From positions 124,001-188,000 of the forward strand of contig NZ_VUYS01000005.1 in the NCBI RefSeq assembly GCF_008389435.1: a stretch of 64,000 bases of DNA. Reading direction: 5' to 3'. The position numbers were made by a program, and so were the translations under genes. This stretch comes from Candidatus Nitrosocosmicus agrestis. GTDB lineage: Archaea; Thermoproteota; Nitrososphaeria; Nitrososphaerales; Nitrososphaeraceae. Under the pieces are notes generated by a model. That model saw only the letters and a list, made by a program, of their open reading frames with translations, was not told the origin of the DNA and did not search any database. Below, piece by piece: positions 6,081 through 61,092 of the stretch. Positions within the stretch are counted from its first letter, which is position 1, and the number at the start of each line of letters is the position of its first letter.

Positions 6081-6512
6081 CTAGCTCTGTGATGCTGCGT
6101 TGCTACCAGAGTTTTCCTGGTTTTGGACGTTGATGTAGTTACCAGAGCCTATTGTATCTCCACCAGAAACTACATTGCTTGTTTGGCTTGAGGATTGTGA
6201 TTGGCTGATGCTTTGGTCTGCAAAGTTGCCGCCTTGACCACTTTGAGCTAATGCGTTGTTACCAGTATTTTTTTGATGTTGGAAGCTTAGATTATTGCAT
6301 GAGAGAAATGTTGTTCCACCAGAGACACACCCAGCATTTTGACTTGATGACTGCGATTGTGATATAGACTGTTTTGCTTTATTTGCTTTCTTATGCGTTG
6401 CAAAGGCGTCATCGATAGCCACTAGGGGACTTGCTATCAAAGCTAATGCGACCACAATAGCGATTGATGCTGTAATTACGTATTTCTTGTTGTGAATATT
6501 TGTTTTATTCAT
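6081..6512 (-). CDS. Secreted curlin-like repeat protein
   Basis: A 143-residue exported protein. The signal peptide covers about residues 1-40 (hydrophobic ITASIAIVVALALIASPLVA) with likely cleavage after AFA in DDAFATHKK. The mature part is Ser/Gln/Asn-rich and holds two repeat units. Each begins QSISQSQSSSQ, continues with a VSGG..T..S.N segment and ends in Q.Q.N.G.NA..QS. The first unit has two Cys (GCVSGG and LSCNN); the second lacks both. The Q-x-G-x-x-N-x-A spacing resembles curlin repeats of bacterial amyloid subunits. A shorter relative is encoded at 60826-61092 with the same AFAT-K-K junction and Cys pair. The amyloid role is inference; export and the family relationship are seen directly. 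Confidence 0.7.
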   Translation of the reverse strand: MNKTNIHNKKYVITASIAIVVALALIASPLVAIDDAFATHKKANKAKQSISQSQSSSQNAGCVSGGTTFLSCNNLSFQHQKNTGNNALAQSGQGGNFADQSISQSQSSSQTSNVVSGGDTIGSGNYINVQNQENSGSNAASQS

Positions 6513-36524: not shown

Positions 36525-37198
36525 TTTCCTTCTTTTCTTTGAGCATTAGAAGTTCGAGTAAGGCCAAAAGATAAGGATCTGCCAGTCTTAATTTCATTTC
36601 TTGTTTGTCAACCAATACATGCAAAATGATATGTTGCTTGCGTAGAGCGCCATAAATAAGGATGATGAGAAATCAATAACCAATACAGGATAAAGAGACA
36701 GAATATTCTAAACTGTCTTAACTAAATACTCTTGTATCCGTAAAATATGTTTGTATATAAGAATTTTGTCAAGATTGCGAAATTTCCGGTCTATTTTAAT
36801 AGTTTGGTATCTTATATCTTATATCTTATATCTTATATCTTATATCTTATATCTTATATCTTATATCTTATATCTTATATCTTGCATTTTTACATTTTTT
36901 TCTAAAACCTGTATTGTTATGATCGTCAGCAATTGAAACAATAACAATAACAATAACAATAGCAGTAAAAAACTGACAACTCCCTACCTCCTAATCCAAA
37001 TAATCTATCTGCTTTGACTGGACTTTCAATGTGTTCTGTCAAAGCTCAGACTCACAGAGCTAGATATTACAACAAGGCATCTACCCGAATCATAATATTT
37101 ATTTCTTGTATTGTATTATAAGCACACAAACTCGTACCATTGATGTATAGGAAAGGACTAAACAAGCGGGTAGTGTTTGATTTGAAAATTGAGTTGAA
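36525..37198. other. Intergenic region with simple repeats
   Basis: No gene. It holds a 7-bp tandem repeat (36808-36883) and a shorter run of AACAAT units near 36940-36965. A frame through the repeat (36751-36936) is an artefact of the repetition. Confidence 0.5.
36808..36883. repeat. 7-bp tandem repeat, about 11 copies
   Basis: Perfect head-to-tail copies of TATCTTA over 76 bp, in the gap between sufC and the small-protein gene at 37199. Perfect identity implies recent slippage, so copy number should vary between strains. Each unit holds a TATA-like core, so it may also affect transcription. Confidence 0.9.
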
Positions 37199-42691: not shown

Positions 42692-42782
42692 GGGGCTATC
42701 GTCTAGCTTGGCAGGATACCATCCATTTTTGGGTATAAGCCCGGGGCGCTGGCGGTCGAGGGTTCGAATCCCTCTGGCCCCA
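42692..42782 (+). tRNA. tRNA-Pro with a probable non-canonical intron
   Basis: The acceptor GGGGCTA pairs with TGGCCCC, discriminator A. The D-arm is GTCTAGCTTGGCAGGAT and the T-arm GAGGGTTCGAATCCCTC. The anticodon arm only folds if about 17 nt (42722-42738) are removed: CCAGC-CCGGGGC-GCTGG then forms a perfect 5-bp stem with a 7-nt loop and anticodon GGG, giving a 74-nt tRNA. The intron would lie in the anticodon stem (about position 29/30), a non-canonical site. Loop position 33 is C rather than U, which is unusual and leaves the exact splice sites open. An integrase gene follows at once. Confidence 0.8.
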
Positions 42783-42826
42783 CATCAATATTGTCGCTTT
42801 AATAGGCACCGCTTTCTATAGAGGAT

Positions 42827-44113
42827 ATGTCAAATTCCACCGTTGAACTAAATTCTTTGACGGGTAGTGAAGGCAACAATTATTTGACAAGTGCATACAG
42901 AATGTTTGTATTTTCAATCAGATCTGAAGTCACTAGGAAATATTATGAAAGACGACTTAGACATTTCTTTAATCATATCAATTTTGACTTGGAAAATAAT
43001 ACCAATATGGAATTAAGATGCAATAATTTTTCCAATAAAGGAAAAAATGATGCTAATTGGGCTGTTGCACAGGTGATAATATTTTTACAATTTCAAAAAG
43101 AAAGAGTCCAGAACGGAGAAATAACTGCGTCTACATTAAGGAACTTTATTAAGGCAATAAAATTATTCTGTGATTCCTCAGACCTTAATATCCCTTGGAG
43201 GAAACTGATGAAAGGCCTTCCACGCGCAGTACAAGCTGCAAATGACAGAGCACCCACAATAGAAGAAATCCAAAAACTTGTTGAATATCCCGATAGAAGG
43301 ATTAAACCTATTGTTTATACTATGGTATCATCAGGAATACGATTAGGCGCTTGGGATTATCTCAAATGGAAACATGTAACTCCTATCTACGACCATGATG
43401 ATAAAACAGTAGTAGTAGCGGCCAAACTAAAGGTTTACGAAGGTGATGTTGAAGAATATTTTTCTTTTATTACTCATGAAGCCTATAAGGCATTAAAGGA
43501 TTGGATGGATTTCCGTGCCTCATATGGAGAGGACATAAATGGCGAGAGTTGGCTAATGAGAGATCTCTGGCAAACAACTAATGTAAGATATGGTGCTAGA
43601 TGGGGACTTGCTACCATACCTAAAAAAATTAAGAATACTGGTATAAAGAGACTATTAGAACGAGCACTATGGGATCAAGGTATACGAAATAAACTCAAAG
43701 ATGGAACAAAAAGACATGAATTTAAAGCAGCACATGGTTTTAGGAAGTTTTATAAATCAAGAGCAGAGCAAGTTATGCGACCTATTAATGTAGAGATTAC
43801 CATGGGTCATAATATTGGTTTGTCTGATTGTTACTATAGACCTACAGAAAGAGAAGTCTCAGATGATTATCTAAAGGCTGTTGATTTGCTTACGGTAAAT
43901 TCAGATGGTATTACTTTAAAGAAAGAAGTTCAACAGCTTAGAGAAGAAAATCAAAATAATGAATACGTAATAAAAGGAAAACTTCGGGAAAAAGACGAGG
44001 AAATACGGATATTAAAGGAGCAAAACTTACAAAATAATGATACTCTGTTAATGCTATCTGACAAAGTCCAGATATTGATGGATAAGATGAGTAAATCAGA
44101 TAAACTTCCCTAA
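42827..44113 (+). CDS. Tyrosine recombinase (integrase) of an element at tRNA-Pro
   Basis: A 428-residue integrase. The N-terminal core-binding domain covers about 1-150. The catalytic domain shows R172 in VSSGIRLGAWDYLKW, H303 and R306 in AAHGFRKFYKSRAEQ, then TMGHNIGLSDCYYRPT with the nucleophile Tyr (336 or 337). A coiled coil forms the C-terminus (REENQNNEYVIKGKLREKDE). The gene starts 44 bp after tRNA-Pro and reads away from it, the usual layout of an element integrated at the tRNA 3' end. Its last 18 bp overlap the convergent gene downstream. Confidence 0.9.
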   Translation: MSNSTVELNSLTGSEGNNYLTSAYRMFVFSIRSEVTRKYYERRLRHFFNHINFDLENNTNMELRCNNFSNKGKNDANWAVAQVIIFLQFQKERVQNGEITASTLRNFIKAIKLFCDSSDLNIPWRKLMKGLPRAVQAANDRAPTIEEIQKLVEYPDRRIKPIVYTMVSSGIRLGAWDYLKWKHVTPIYDHDDKTVVVAAKLKVYEGDVEEYFSFITHEAYKALKDWMDFRASYGEDINGESWLMRDLWQTTNVRYGARWGLATIPKKIKNTGIKRLLERALWDQGIRNKLKDGTKRHEFKAAHGFRKFYKSRAEQVMRPINVEITMGHNIGLSDCYYRPTEREVSDDYLKAVDLLTVNSDGITLKKEVQQLREENQNNEYVIKGKLREKDEEIRILKEQNLQNNDTLLMLSDKVQILMDKMSKSDKLP

Positions 44114-54444: not shown

Positions 54445-55161
54445 ATGAATAATATAAAGACTATTTTCTTATTATTATTCCTATTAATAGGAACAACATG
54501 CTTAAATGAACCTTTTATGCCTCTCAGTAATGCCAGTAGTAATTCAAATGATGAAGATGATTGTGATCCTGAGGATAGGGAATTCTTTGGAGACGACTGG
54601 TGTAATGACTTTGGCTCCTCTTCAGAAGCCAATGATGATATTGATGCCAATGACGATGATTGTGATCCTGAGGATAGAGAATTTTTTGGAGACGACTGGT
54701 GTAATGACTTTAGTTCAAGTTCCGACGATAGTAGCGATGAACAAGATGATTCAGCAATAACAGATAATGATGATGGAGATCTAGCCTCTCAACCTTCATT
54801 AGAACCTGAAGAACAAGAACAGCAAGACAATTTCCAATCTATCCCTGATACTCCTGAAAATGATAACCTTCTTCCTGCTCAAGAATCTGGCAAGGGATTA
54901 AATGATAATTGTTTAAAATCAGGATTTAGCCAGGAGAGATGTAATAACATGCTATTTTCTGATGATCCTGGGGGATACTGCACAACACTTAAGATGGGTG
55001 GTTTGCCTTGTCCTAAAATACAGGATCCAGCATTCACTTATGGGAATCCAGAGGCAGCAAGGTTTCAATCAGAACAGCAAATTGAAAATACGGAACGTGC
55101 GATACAAGAATTTGATGATGCAGTACCAAATGACTTAGGCCAAGGGTTTGCAGATAATTAG
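54445..55161 (+). CDS. Secreted acidic protein with a Cys-containing repeat
   Basis: A 238-residue exported protein. The signal peptide is at about 1-22 (IFLLLFLLIGTTC). The mature part is strongly acidic and holds two nearly identical 19-residue repeats (DDCDPEDREFFGDDWCNDF) near residues 38-56 and 72-90, each with two Cys likely to form a disulfide. A central Ser/Asp/Glu linker and a C-terminal domain with more Cys (LNDNCLKSGFSQERCNNM, GGYCTTLKMGGLPCPK) follow. It may bind calcium. Together with the next two genes it forms a plus-strand run of surface proteins. Confidence 0.65.
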   Translation: MNNIKTIFLLLFLLIGTTCLNEPFMPLSNASSNSNDEDDCDPEDREFFGDDWCNDFGSSSEANDDIDANDDDCDPEDREFFGDDWCNDFSSSSDDSSDEQDDSAITDNDDGDLASQPSLEPEEQEQQDNFQSIPDTPENDNLLPAQESGKGLNDNCLKSGFSQERCNNMLFSDDPGGYCTTLKMGGLPCPKIQDPAFTYGNPEAARFQSEQQIENTERAIQEFDDAVPNDLGQGFADN

Positions 55162-55988: not shown

Positions 55989-56134
55989 TTTTTATCGAAT
56001 GTAGTTATTTAGAATTATAAATTTTTCAGTAAGATTGTATTTGCAATTGAGTTGTTGGAGAAGAATGTTTGAATTTGAGCTTAATTGGCATGCGGTAAGG
56101 ATAAATACCACAAATGTAAATGCTCTCATAGTGA

Positions 56135-58549
56135 ATGAAAAAAAATAATCATTTGTTTGTATTTGGCTTAACACTTTTTTTAGTAATTTCATTATTAGTT
56201 TCTCCATCTCTCGTGGGTATGAATGTCATGGAGAATGTATATGGTCAATCTTCTGGAGAATCAGATCCAAAAATTCGAACTGGGCCGCCTGCAGATGAAT
56301 TTATCTCTAAGGATTTTCCTATTTCTGAACAAAATCCTACTAATGCTGAAATCCACGGGGATACAAAAGTAACAACAACAACTCCCACCCCTCCTACTAA
56401 TGCTGAAATCCACGGGGATACAAAAGTAACAACAACAACTCCCACCCCTCCTACTAATGCTGAAATCCACGGGGATACAAAAGTAACAACAACAACTCCC
56501 ACCCCTCCTACTAATGCTGAAATCCACGGGGATACAGTTAAGATATCAACTCCTGAACCGCCTTCTTCAGTAGTAAAAAAGAATCCTTTTAAGATTTTCA
56601 AAGGATTGAAAACAATTGTTCCAATCTTCGCAGTTGCTGGGTTGTTACTAACAGCGCAGAGTGCTCATGCTGCTTATCAAAATGGAGATTATGGTACGGC
56701 TATAGGCGATTCTATGCAAGTATTAGGTGATTCTATTGCTATAGCTGGCGTTGTTACTGTGCAGCCGGAAATAGTGGCGGCCGGAAAGGTGCTAAGTTAT
56801 GGTGGACTAATTGTAAGTACTGCCTTCTTCTTTTTTAAGGGCGGGTTAAAGATGATGGATTCGTTGAAAGCTGAAGCCAAAAAAGCTCCTTTCGTCTCTA
56901 ATTCCAACCCCATTACAAGAGTAAGTGATACTAGAAGCAGTAATAACGAGGACAATAGTCCCAGATCTGTAGTAGAATCGGTATCAGCCAGAATTTGTGA
57001 TAGTGCCTGTCTTGCTGAAAATAATGATGTGGATCCAGATAATCCAGATAATCCAGATAATCCAGATAATCCAGATAATCCAGATAATCCAGATAATCCA
57101 GATAACGTCGGAAGTCTCCCTCCAATTTGTAATCCTGGTCAAATTCTAACATTTGAGGGTTGTGTACCTGAGACTCCAACATGTGGTGAAGGCGAGGTCT
57201 TGGAGAATGGCCAATGTGTACCTGAGACTCCAACATGTGGTGAAGGCGAGGTCTTGGAGAATGGCCAATGTGTACCTGAGACTCCAACATGTGGTGAAGG
57301 CGAGGTCTTGGAGAATGGCCAATGTGTACCTGAGACTCCAACATGTGGTGAAGGCGAGGTCTTGGAGAATGGCCAATGTGTACCTGAGACTCCAACATGT
57401 GGTGAAGGCGAGGTCTTGGAGAATGGCCAATGTGTACCTGAGACTCCAACATGTGGTGAAGGCGAGGTCTTGGAGAATGGCCAATGTGTACCTGAGACTC
57501 CTCCAATACCCCCGTGCACCTCTGAAAACGTGGGCTCAGGTAATTGTAAATCTGATAATGCAGAATGTACGCAGAATCCTGTACTTCCTGCTGCTGTTAA
57601 TTGTAATTTTACCGATAGTGAAGGTAACACTCATCTTTACACTTATTGGAATGGTGTTTTACACGGTTATTGTGCGCCAGGTGGAGGATGTGTCTCTACT
57701 CCCATAACAGGTCCTCCAGTTGACGCCCCTCCGCCACCACTCTCCACAACTGAAACTGCCACACTAGCAACAACTGAAACTGCCACACTAGCAACAACTG
57801 AAACTGCCACACTAGCAATAAGTACAGTTGCACCATGTGAAAGTTTGACATCTATTAAATCTAATTGCTCTAGCGTGGTATCCTTACCTTCTACTTTAAC
57901 TCCTTTTATCACTACAACTGAACAGCCTACAGCCGAATCTACTACAACTGAACAGCCTACAGCCGAATCTACTACAACTGAACAGCCTACAGCCGAATCT
58001 ACTACAACTGAACAGCCTACAGCCGAATCTACTACAACTGAACAGCCTACAGCCGAATCTACTACAACTGAACAGCCTACAGCCGAATCTACTACAACTG
58101 AACAGCCTACAGCCGAATCTACTACAACTGAACAGCCTACAGCCGAATCTACTACAACTGAACAGCCTACAGCCGAATCTACTACAACTGAACAGCCGCT
58201 TTCAGACTCTGATGATAGGCTTGACAATTCTCAATCTAGTGACAATATTAGTGATGACAACGGCGGAAGTGATGACAACGGCGGAAGTGATGACAACGGC
58301 GGAAGTGATGACAACGGCGGAAGTGATGACAACGGCGGAAGTGATGACAACGGCGGAAGTGATGACAACGGCGTAAGTGATGACAACGGCGGAAGTGATG
58401 ACAACGGCGGAAGTGATGACAACGGCGGAAGTGATGACAACGGCGGAAGTGATGATAGTCAAAGCGGTAGTGATGACAACGGCGGAAGTGATGACAACGG
58501 CGGAAGTGATGATAGTCAAAGCGGTAGTGATGACAACGGCGGTACCTAA
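56135..58549 (+). CDS. Large surface protein built of five kinds of tandem repeat
   Basis: An 804-residue exported protein. The signal peptide is near residues 1-38. Then come: three full and one partial TNAEIHGDTKVTTTTPTPP unit; a hydrophobic stretch (about 150-245) with two possible membrane helices; a PDN run; six TCGEGEVLENGQCVPETP units; three 8-residue ATLATTET units; nine full TTTEQPTAES units; and about 14 DDNGGS-type units to the end. The Cys-rich units look like small disulfide knots, and the Asp/Gly/Asn tail resembles calcium-binding repeats. Thr/Ser-rich regions are likely glycosylated. An adhesin or matrix protein is the best guess. Confidence 0.75.
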   Translation: MKKNNHLFVFGLTLFLVISLLVSPSLVGMNVMENVYGQSSGESDPKIRTGPPADEFISKDFPISEQNPTNAEIHGDTKVTTTTPTPPTNAEIHGDTKVTTTTPTPPTNAEIHGDTKVTTTTPTPPTNAEIHGDTVKISTPEPPSSVVKKNPFKIFKGLKTIVPIFAVAGLLLTAQSAHAAYQNGDYGTAIGDSMQVLGDSIAIAGVVTVQPEIVAAGKVLSYGGLIVSTAFFFFKGGLKMMDSLKAEAKKAPFVSNSNPITRVSDTRSSNNEDNSPRSVVESVSARICDSACLAENNDVDPDNPDNPDNPDNPDNPDNPDNPDNVGSLPPICNPGQILTFEGCVPETPTCGEGEVLENGQCVPETPTCGEGEVLENGQCVPETPTCGEGEVLENGQCVPETPTCGEGEVLENGQCVPETPTCGEGEVLENGQCVPETPTCGEGEVLENGQCVPETPPIPPCTSENVGSGNCKSDNAECTQNPVLPAAVNCNFTDSEGNTHLYTYWNGVLHGYCAPGGGCVSTPITGPPVDAPPPPLSTTETATLATTETATLATTETATLAISTVAPCESLTSIKSNCSSVVSLPSTLTPFITTTEQPTAESTTTEQPTAESTTTEQPTAESTTTEQPTAESTTTEQPTAESTTTEQPTAESTTTEQPTAESTTTEQPTAESTTTEQPTAESTTTEQPLSDSDDRLDNSQSSDNISDDNGGSDDNGGSDDNGGSDDNGGSDDNGGSDDNGGSDDNGVSDDNGGSDDNGGSDDNGGSDDNGGSDDSQSGSDDNGGSDDNGGSDDSQSGSDDNGGT
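56339..56535 (+). repeat. 57-bp coding repeat, 3.5 copies
   Basis: Near-identical 57-bp units encoding TNAEIHGDTKVTTTTPTPP inside the large surface-protein gene. The DNA identity is essentially perfect, including silent positions, so the expansion is recent. Confidence 0.9.
57179..57502 (+). repeat. 54-bp coding repeat, 6 copies
   Basis: Six 54-bp units encoding TCGEGEVLENGQCVPETP, each with two Cys, identical at the DNA level. A diverged seventh unit (CNPGQILTFEGCVPETP) precedes them and may be the ancestor. Confidence 0.9.
57911..58198 (+). repeat. 30-bp coding repeat, 9 full copies plus one partial
   Basis: Perfect 30-bp units encoding TTTEQPTAES; the last is cut to TTTEQPLSD. A Thr/Ser/Glu/Pro stalk of this kind is typical of glycosylated surface proteins. 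Confidence 0.9.
58253..58546 (+). repeat. 18-bp coding repeat, about 14 copies
   Basis: Units of GATGACAACGGCGGAAGT encoding DDNGGS, with one GVS variant and two DDSQSGS insertions, forming the C-terminus of the large surface protein. Confidence 0.9.
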
Positions 58550-58843: not shown

Positions 58844-59401
58844 ATGAATAAGGTATACGAAATTAACTCGAATATTCTCCTACTTGCTAATATTGCAATA
58901 GTAATTCCTTTAAAATTAGAAAGGATAGATGGATTAATATCTAATTATTATAACAAACAATGTAGGGATCTACAGATGACTATCTCCATCATAATACCTG
59001 ATAAATTATCTACTGCAGGCATGGGTGAATATCATTACTCATTTCTACAAGAGGGACTTTATCAGCCTGATCAAGATTCTCCTGAAAGTTGGAGAGTAGT
59101 CAGTGTTAGACATCTAGTTGATGATGACTCAAACAGCCTACAAGAGTATGAGAAATGTATTGATACGGCTATAGCCACAATTAATCAGCATGGAAAGGTA
59201 GTAATTTGTTGTAGTTATGGTATATCACGTAGTAACGCTATTGCTGTAGGTGTACTTGTAAAACATTTTGGAATGGATTTTGATAATGCGGTAGAATTAG
59301 TAAAAAAAATGGTCAGCAAAGCAAATATCAAAAATGCACATATAATAAAACTAAAAGAACTATTCGGAATTAACAATAGCAAAACCTTTGTCTCCACTTG
59401 A
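58844..59401 (+). CDS. Dual-specificity protein phosphatase
   Basis: A 185-residue phosphatase. The active-site loop is C-X5-R in KVVICCSYGISRSNAIAVGV (nucleophile in the second Cys, then S-Y-G-I-S-R). The general acid is probably in RHLVDDDSNSLQEYEK. The loop is followed by a helix (LVKHFGMDFDNAVELVKKMV). Its N-terminal part (about 1-45) is not recognised. It removes phosphate from Ser, Thr or Tyr of an unknown protein. It lies alone, flanked by the two direct repeats (58711 and 59564). Confidence 0.85.
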   Translation: MNKVYEINSNILLLANIAIVIPLKLERIDGLISNYYNKQCRDLQMTISIIIPDKLSTAGMGEYHYSFLQEGLYQPDQDSPESWRVVSVRHLVDDDSNSLQEYEKCIDTAIATINQHGKVVICCSYGISRSNAIAVGVLVKHFGMDFDNAVELVKKMVSKANIKNAHIIKLKELFGINNSKTFVST

Positions 59402-60825
59402 TGTTTTAAAATTACAAATAATCTTAGTTGTAAACTGTCGTCAAAGTGTGTGCTTGTAAATACGCAATACGAATTGAAATCTCCTACTTTTCGGCCTTTT
59501 CAGTTATGCTAGTCTACTCAAGATTCTGTATATATGAGTATATGGAAAAATTAATCCATGATGGTCAAATTTGTTTCACCACTGTCTGGCCCACTGTTAT
59601 ATTGCTACTTTCTTAATATTCACAAATAAAACAAAAGATGAAAGAAAAATTTGGAATTAGAAGCACAGAAACAAGTTTTAATGTTCATGTTTTTATTTGT
59701 ATTTAATATAGGTAGCTTCAACTATAGTTATGACCTAGAACAAGTAGGAGATTTCTTTGATAATGTTGTTTCTTTCCTATTTAAGATATCGTAAAAAGAT
59801 GTGAATTTCTATAAAGATGAAAAAAGTATCTTTGGATGGGGACTTTAACAGTATTATGATATTTTTGCAATACTCATTCTTGATCGAGTGTTTAGCTCAC
59901 AATTTTGCAGAGGTGTACTAAATAACGCTAATTACAATAAAGACCTATTCTCTATGGAGGAACATATGAAACTGAGATGTGTATTGATTCATAACTCTAA
60001 TCATATCTAATAAGATTACTAAGGAATGGAATATTGATGATTGCAAGATATTGATGAACATGTAATTGATTTTAATAACAAGTCTTTAGTATCAAAATGT
60101 TACTGAGAGAGAAATAATTATAGGTTAGATAGATTTCTTCTTAAAATGATATCCTTTTACCACACGTACAATATGAGTGAAAAATTCTTCTGTTGACTCG
60201 ATCTTTGCAAAGTGAATATTAAATATGACGATTTTTTTTGATTAATGATGAATATGTCTCATAATGACTAAATTCAGTTTCTAGCTTCTCTTAATAGTCA
60301 TTTCGAAACCGAAACCTCGAGGCTTTGGAACTATTTTATTTTCTTTATTTTTTTATTATTGAAAAATGCAGTATTTTTAGAACTTGTATAACCGTCTAGC
60401 AATAAGTAATATATATTTTACAAAAAAATAATGCGGTCAAACTATTTGTACACAAAAAGATGAGATCTGTTTATCCCTTTGGTAAATGAACAAATAAGAT
60501 ATAATTTTTGTTCCAAATAATACGTATTTAAATTAGTAGTTATTCCAACTGTGCTTCAAATAATGACTGGAAGTGGATGAAGCAAATCAAGGAGGAGACA
60601 CAGCAGTCTTGTTAACGCGTATAGAATGGATCTTTTAACTTTATTGATGTTTAGATTATATCTTTTTTACAAGTCATAGTCAAAAAAAATTAATCAATAA
60701 TTTTGTTAAACTCTAGTAGAAAAATCAATCTATTAATTAATGTATAATATTATTATAAAAAAAGAATTCAGAATCAAATATCCAAACTATGATAAGTTAT
60801 TTTTCAATTATACATTATGATTATA
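59402..60825. other. Gene-poor region with decayed coding traces
   Basis: About 1.4 kb with no intact gene. Scattered stretches (for example near 59950-60160) read like fragments of protein between stops, but none can be named. The right half of the direct repeat (59564-59601) lies here. The promoter of the curlin-like gene is at the right end. Confidence 0.4.
59564..59601 (+). repeat. Direct repeat copy 2, right of the phosphatase gene
   Basis: GTCAAATTTGTTTCACCACT followed by GTCTGGCCCACTG, the partner of 58711-58748. With it, the phosphatase gene is bracketed by about 38-bp imperfect direct repeats. Confidence 0.5.
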
Positions 60826-61092
60826 ATGAGTAACGTAACAAAAAACCATAAAATGGGCATAGTAGCAATCTTTGTTGCCGCAGCTTTAGTAGGTTCAGTA
60901 GTTGCATTCGGTAACGACAATATGGCATTTGCCACAAAAAAACACAATGACGCTGAGCAAGAAATTGAACAAGGACAAGCAAACGAACAGAATGCACAAT
61001 GTGTTTCTGGAGAATTTACCTTAGCTTCATGCAATAACGTTGGAATACAATTACAAGAACAGCTTGGTAATTTGGCTTTAGGCCAACGATAA
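60826..61092 (+). CDS. Secreted curlin-like protein (short member)
   Basis: An 88-residue exported protein related to the one at 6081-6512. The signal peptide (MGIVAIFVAAALVGSVVAFG) leads to the junction NMAFATKKHN, closely like DDAFATHKK of the first. One repeat unit follows: EQNAQCVSGEFTLASCNN with the same Cys pair, then QLQEQLGNLALGQR. The Ser/Gln tract of the longer protein is replaced by a Glu/Gln-rich one. The frame opens at an ATG at 60817; the one at 60826 is also usable. Confidence 0.65.
   Translation: MSNVTKNHKMGIVAIFVAAALVGSVVAFGNDNMAFATKKHNDAEQEIEQGQANEQNAQCVSGEFTLASCNNVGIQLQEQLGNLALGQR

Follow-up and report, generated by a model that had tools for sequence, protein, structure and literature searches.

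What kind of protein does a reading frame built in good part from tandem DNA repeats encode in the ammonia-oxidizing archaeon Candidatus Nitrosocosmicus agrestis, and by what process has it grown? The frame lies in a stretch of 64,000 nt (hereafter, the window) on contig 18 (207 kb) of the 43 that make up a genome of 3,224,501 bp, and its start, end, strand and frame are exactly those given by an earlier note on this DNA (Table 1). TRF recovered, all in frame, the five arrays with units of 57, 54, 30, 24 and 18 bp described there, together with a sixth that had been overlooked, the 9-bp array coding for (PDN)n. The six arrays occupy 1269 of the 2415 bp of the ORF, a share far beyond that expected by chance, and every period is a multiple of 3. 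Copies show no mismatch in five of the six arrays, third codon positions included, and the sole array with variants is the 18-bp one, in which a G-to-T change marks one copy (GGCGTA) and SDDSQSG breaks the tract twice. Elsewhere in the window, the same cut-off returned one other array, a perfect and non-coding 7-bp repeat, (TATCTTA)10.9, at positions 36808-36883. The diverged Cys unit ahead of the 54-bp array, as judged from its alignment to the latter, is the probable ancestral or seed copy of that array.

Table 1. Features of the repeat-protein locus and of the neighboring integration site (positions within the window)
Feature	Position	Strand	Description and basis
Intron-bearing tRNA, integration hotspot	42692..42783	+	Synteny with sister genomes ends at tRNA 3' end
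Tyrosine-recombinase-like integrase	42827..44113	+	R..HxxR..H..Y motif by eye; no Pfam match
Possible archaeal TATA box (ATAAATAC)	56101..56108	+	~30 bp before ATG; sequence reading only
Repeat-protein ORF	56135..58549	+	804 aa; no Pfam match
Signal-peptide-like N-terminus (MKKNNHLFVFGLTLFLVISLLVSPSLVG...VYGQ), residues 1-38	56135..56248	+	Hydropathy
57-bp array × 3.5	56335..56536	+	Unit (P)TNAEIHGDTKVTTTTPTPP; copies 100% identical; TRF
Unique core, residues 134-300	56534..57034	+	Hydropathy; AF2 single-sequence model
9-bp array × 8.1	57033..57105	+	(PDN)n; copies 100% identical; TRF
Diverged first Cys unit CNPGQILTFEGCVPETPT	57128..57181	+	Alignment to 54-bp unit
54-bp array × 6.3	57161..57501	+	Unit CGEGEVLENGQCVPETPT; two Cys per unit; TRF
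Unique Cys-rich domain, residues 456-530, 6 Cys	57500..57724	+	Predicted beta-rich
24-bp array × 3.0	57746..57818	+	Unit TTETATLA; TRF
30-bp array × 9.6	57911..58197	+	Unit TTTEQPTAES; TRF
18-bp array × about 16	58250..58542	+	Unit SDDNGG; C-terminal polyanionic tail to stop codon; TRF

Such perfection could in part be a product of the assembly. The genome of Ca. N. agrestis SS (43 contigs, 3.22 Mb) was sequenced on HiSeq X Ten from ~400-bp fragments and assembled with metaSPAdes using 127-mers, followed by GapCloser (PMC8573960), and four of the arrays (202, 341, 287, and 293 bp) are longer than k=127. Both the copy numbers and, in part, the perfection are therefore estimates that depend on the assembly, and we see a substantial, albeit minority, chance that arrays collapsed in the 127-mer graph were rebuilt by gap filling, in which case true lengths and variants may differ. 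The same weakness is evident in another secreted repeat protein of this genome, whose 27-bp array encloses a 98-base N run (L136:13254-13351); no other unfilled gap was present in the unmasked portion of the 766 kb sampled. The reading frame of the unit changes across the run, so that the length of this array in the assembly is provisional. However, the six units of the ORF all differ in sequence, one frame is kept across all joins, and the 18-bp array retains variant copies. Furthermore, closed single-contig sister genomes also have 100%-identical arrays, exemplified by those of 48 bp × 6.7 and 39 bp × 4.2 in G013, and the perfect-array pattern was seen in a second closed genome (G006) as well. 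The existence of the arrays and the sequences of their units are thus solid, whereas the copy numbers are not.

We surveyed stretches of six genomes for arrays of at least 50 bp, at least 2.9 copies, at least 90% match and a period of at least 6, covering 766 kb of the 3.22 Mb of the agrestis genome and 260-400 kb of each control genome. In-ORF arrays numbered 24.8 per Mb over all agrestis stretches, a sample partly picked for repeat hits (arbitrary contig-start stretches alone held 6 arrays in 305 kb, that is, 19.7 per Mb), and 17.5, 12.5, and 5.0 per Mb in the sister genomes G013, G006, and G004, respectively. Outside the genus, G064 of the same family had 5.0 per Mb and G033 of the same order had 0, so that a modest test set 13.3 per Mb for the genus against 3.0 for the latter two pooled (p about 0.02). 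The period of in-ORF arrays was divisible by 3 in every case and every genome. A signal- or TM-like N-terminus was called in all ten array proteins of the agrestis genome, one of which (L028) may be spurious, as compared with 31.5% of the other ORFs (p=1e-5), and in 20 of 24 array proteins of the pooled genomes over a background of 29% (p=6e-8); signal-peptide calls throughout this work follow a simple hydropathy rule rather than a trained predictor. Residues S, T, P, N, D, Q, E, G, and A make up 88% of the array units, which are mostly acidic. Unrelated secreted proteins with perfect or near-perfect in-frame arrays were recorded at L024, L025, L027, L029, L032, L127, L136, and L138 in the agrestis genome, and at L043, L045, L058, and L060 (G013) and L069, L070, L073, and L079 (G006).

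Arrays also differ between orthologs. One conserved secreted protein, present in 15 of 15 genus genomes, carries its array between the flanks GPxCC and DFSF, with units of 54 bp in agrestis, 54 bp of other sequence in G004, 48 bp in G006, 33 bp in G009, 42 bp (× 14.6) in G013, and 39 bp in G002, yet the arrays are Asp/Ser/Asn-rich in all six species. A second secreted family has 39 bp × 4.2 in G013 versus 27 bp × 3.4 in G006. These two families thus reveal that arrays are gained and lost between species while composition is kept, and the turnover in the ortholog family provides indirect support for growth by repeat expansion. The agrestis gene is species-specific and the process is genus-wide, since many unrelated secreted proteins of Nitrosocosmicus bear independent arrays alike in kind. 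The assertion of the earlier note that such a design is rarely described in ammonia-oxidizing archaea agrees with the literature, where a few searches turned up no account of one, but within the genus such arrays are not rare. It is this secretome-biased, genus-wide expansion that is worth following, and the agrestis ORF is its most extreme example here.

The genomic setting raises the question of whether the gene belongs to a mobile element. The region left of the intron-bearing tRNA is syntenic with the sister chromosomes, and beyond the tRNA come the integrase and then replication-type genes. G013 carries this integrase at the corresponding tRNA, with DNA 89% identical, and other species have different genes at this place. 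The neighbors at 54445 and 58844 are near species-specific, being absent from nearly all sister genomes, and a PsbP-like neighbor has distant relatives in six of them. Because synteny stops at the tRNA and integrase and these neighbors are near species-specific, the gene can be placed next to an integration hotspot, in a region specific to the species. The exact break of synteny, the genes that follow it, the G013 integrase, and the absence of the gene and its neighbors from nearly all sister genomes would all be explained if the ORF were cargo of an element extending from 42.7 kb onward and served that element, for example in surface exclusion or virus shielding. Nonetheless, we regard this as unlikely: no exact repeat of at least 14 bp marks a right-hand attachment site within the window, 12 kb separate the gene from the integrase, viral contigs and phages gave no match, and array-bearing secreted proteins are spread over the genome instead of being confined to the element region.

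Several other genes were noted around the locus. The upstream neighbor (54445-55161) encodes an acidic secreted protein, in which CDPEDREFFGDDWCNDF occurs twice and whose sole relative in the genus is a paralog in the same genome (G000:C12:111143-111490). Downstream, a dual-specificity-phosphatase-like gene (58844-59401) has its sole genus relative in G005, where it is interrupted by an internal stop codon. A large open frame with a signal-like start (L154:3-3689; at least 1229 aa) lies near the corresponding integrase element of G013. Lastly, a family of small secreted proteins occurs in several copies close together (6081-6512, 60817-61092, and L027:5246-5755), with the motifs CVSGG...SCNN and a QNQxNxGNNAL(A)Q-like stretch.

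Searches with the whole protein, its core or its Cys domain detected no homologs in 14 sister species, 40 relatives, 70 family genomes or 400 class genomes, nor in GTDB contigs, viral contigs and phages. A weak match in G218, to an unrelated secreted protein, was rejected because it was limited to a signal-peptide-like stretch, as were matches in G006 and G000:C37/C12, which are composition-driven repeats in unrelated proteins. The CxxGxxxxxGxC two-Cys repeats of the archaeal secreted proteins L003 and G032 are alike in their C-x-x-G...G-x-C spacing (47% identity over 81 aa), but these are diverged single copies as opposed to the six identical copies of the agrestis protein; the kinship, for which the evidence is a short low-complexity match (E=5e-4), is unproven. 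The lack of a homolog in any collection searched and the low-complexity composition would be expected of a young orphan gene whose repeats expand neutrally, without a selected function. We give this explanation little credence, since six arrays of differing period leave the frame open, periods are divisible by 3 in 19 of 19 in-ORF arrays of the agrestis genome, and only 3 of 22 arrays lie beyond the ORFs of 100 aa or more, even though these amount to just ~61% of the sampled sequence. Indeed, the bias toward secreted proteins and the amino-acid composition that non-homologous arrays have in common speak for selection.

The protein itself has a net charge of −103, 24 Cys, and three N-glycosylation sequons, by their number too few for heavy N-glycosylation. 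The TATA-box candidate, if used, would possibly give a leaderless mRNA. Residues 4-33 are hydrophobic, as expected of the signal peptide of an exported protein, which would be cleaved after VYG. The unique core is laid out as a K-rich flank, a hydrophobic helix (~154-181, ending AHA-A), a helical region, and a second K-rich amphipathic helix; its AF2 single-sequence model has a mean pLDDT of 58 and helices at 19-49, 53-76, and 86-117. Hydropathy and this low-confidence model make a membrane hairpin possible, albeit with K-rich flanks that would agree poorly with the positive-inside rule, should both arms lie outside. A VirB2/TrbC-pilin-like core, suggested by the AHA-A ending followed by two helices, was rejected, as a profile search gave it no support. 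Pfam and PHROG searches with the protein and its segments yielded nothing above the curated Pfam cut-off, S-layer domains included, and sequence and fold searches of the PDB returned no meaningful match.

Two structural attributes proposed earlier did not withstand this scrutiny. A cystine knot comprises at least six Cys forming three interlocked disulfides per module, and none was recognized: the 54-bp unit contributes two Cys and was modeled by AlphaFold2 (single-sequence, pLDDT ~80) as one small beta-hairpin, and the separate six-Cys domain had no cystine-knot match or any other above the Pfam cut-off, no plausible sequence relative, and no fold match in the PDB. Likewise, what had been taken for a calcium-type tail is an acidic Ser-Asp-Asn-Gly tract, in a protein that matched neither GGxGxDx nor DxDxDG patterns (RTX, thrombospondin-3/EF-type) and no Pfam domain; a specific calcium site is unsupported because the tail has no DxDxDG or RTX motif, though such a polyanion may bind cations. 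These attributes had implied a canonical calcium-dependent adhesin or S-layer-type protein, a reading that is most improbable: the acidic Asp/Gly tail and stalk-like Thr/Pro repeats that speak for it are outweighed by the absence of DxDxDG, RTX, and other Pfam domains and by the reported absence of S-layer and adhesion-protein genes from the genus (PMC11559005, PMC12448741).

Other parts of that description, namely Thr/Pro repeats in a modular exported protein of an ammonia-oxidizing archaeon, with arrays recently expanded or homogenized, are borne out by the present data. The hypervariability that it also proposed is a candidate trait of this gene, supported by analogy with the array turnover in the ortholog family; the collections searched held no second allele or ortholog of the gene itself. 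The reading that we favor, with a probability of roughly 0.6, is that the ORF encodes an exported, strongly acidic, and mostly disordered protein of the envelope or extracellular matrix, which owes its length to slippage or unequal recombination. Nitrosocosmicus cells have a glycocalyx-like coat and no S-layer. The gene slp is reported absent from the genus (PMC11559005), whose members have no S-layer genes, display hair-like surface structures, and form biofilms without known adhesins, the adhesion proteins of other ammonia-oxidizing archaea being absent (PMC11559005, PMC12448741), and cells of Ca. N. agrestis are embedded in an extracellular matrix (PMC8573960). In an archaeon with hair-like structures and with neither S-layer nor known adhesion proteins, a matrix or coat protein is the most likely role.

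We infer from these features a surface location, in which the signal peptide would take the chain out of the cell and the hydrophobic, K-rich core (residues ~150-255) may anchor it there. The Thr/Pro spacers, a row of small disulfide-closed hairpins, and the polyanionic tail would then project outward, the latter perhaps engaging cations, polyamines or matrix polymers in a matrix role. Replication slippage or unequal recombination would lengthen and shorten the in-frame arrays, and with them the protein, so that the agrestis gene may vary; the same events would maintain the identity of copies, with selection retaining multiples of 3 and removing frame-breaking lengths.

Intragenic VNTR surface proteins of bacteria and yeast, such as those of the Legionella repeat genes and FLO11, are secreted and Thr/Ser/Pro-rich, and tandem copies set their length. 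The agrestis protein is alike in all these respects, and no shared domains were found. The large adhesion proteins of Nitrososphaera viennensis and Nitrosopumilus maritimus are likewise extracellular in ammonia oxidizers, with a possible role in attachment, but they span ~1000-3000 aa, co-occur with an S-layer, and are reported absent from Nitrosocosmicus (PMC12448741). The closest described case, by likeness in workings, is that of the aaTR proteins of Borg elements of Methanoperedens (PMC9879509). In both, the DNA repeats are perfect, in frame and head-to-tail, their periods are multiples of 3, and their units favor disorder-promoting residues (P/T/S, D/N/E); both are enriched in exported proteins, and the arrays of homologous proteins are alike in composition. 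Indeed, the agrestis ORF contains arrays of the kind that define Borg aaTRs, with three or more perfect units that lie in frame within an ORF and span 50 nt or more, and the density of arrays in ORFs is similar (~20 per Mb in agrestis, ~23 per Mb in Borgs). However, only 44% of Borg arrays are in ORFs, and aaTR arrays are virtually absent from the host chromosome (PMC9879509), whereas those of agrestis are nearly all in ORFs and reside on the cellular chromosome of an ammonia oxidizer. The ORF does not share the extrachromosomal location of Borgs, as its 207-kb contig of the 3.22-Mb genome is syntenic with sister chromosomes left of the tRNA.

Tentatively, and with less confidence than in the nature of the protein itself, we propose that Nitrosocosmicus chromosomes run a Borg-like repeat expansion aimed at the secretome, in which in-frame arrays would recurrently emerge and turn over in unrelated acidic exported proteins. 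This would provide cells lacking an S-layer with a fast-evolving, strain-specific, disordered protein coat, the six-array orphan being its extreme case. The cell covering of Nitrosocosmicus is an open question (PMC11559005, PMC12448741), for which exported, acidic, disordered proteins that differ rapidly in length and sequence from species to species would be a concrete and testable candidate. If the proposal is true, perfect in-frame expansion, described as a hallmark of Borgs, would also occur, with a strong bias toward the secretome, in an ordinary archaeal chromosome.
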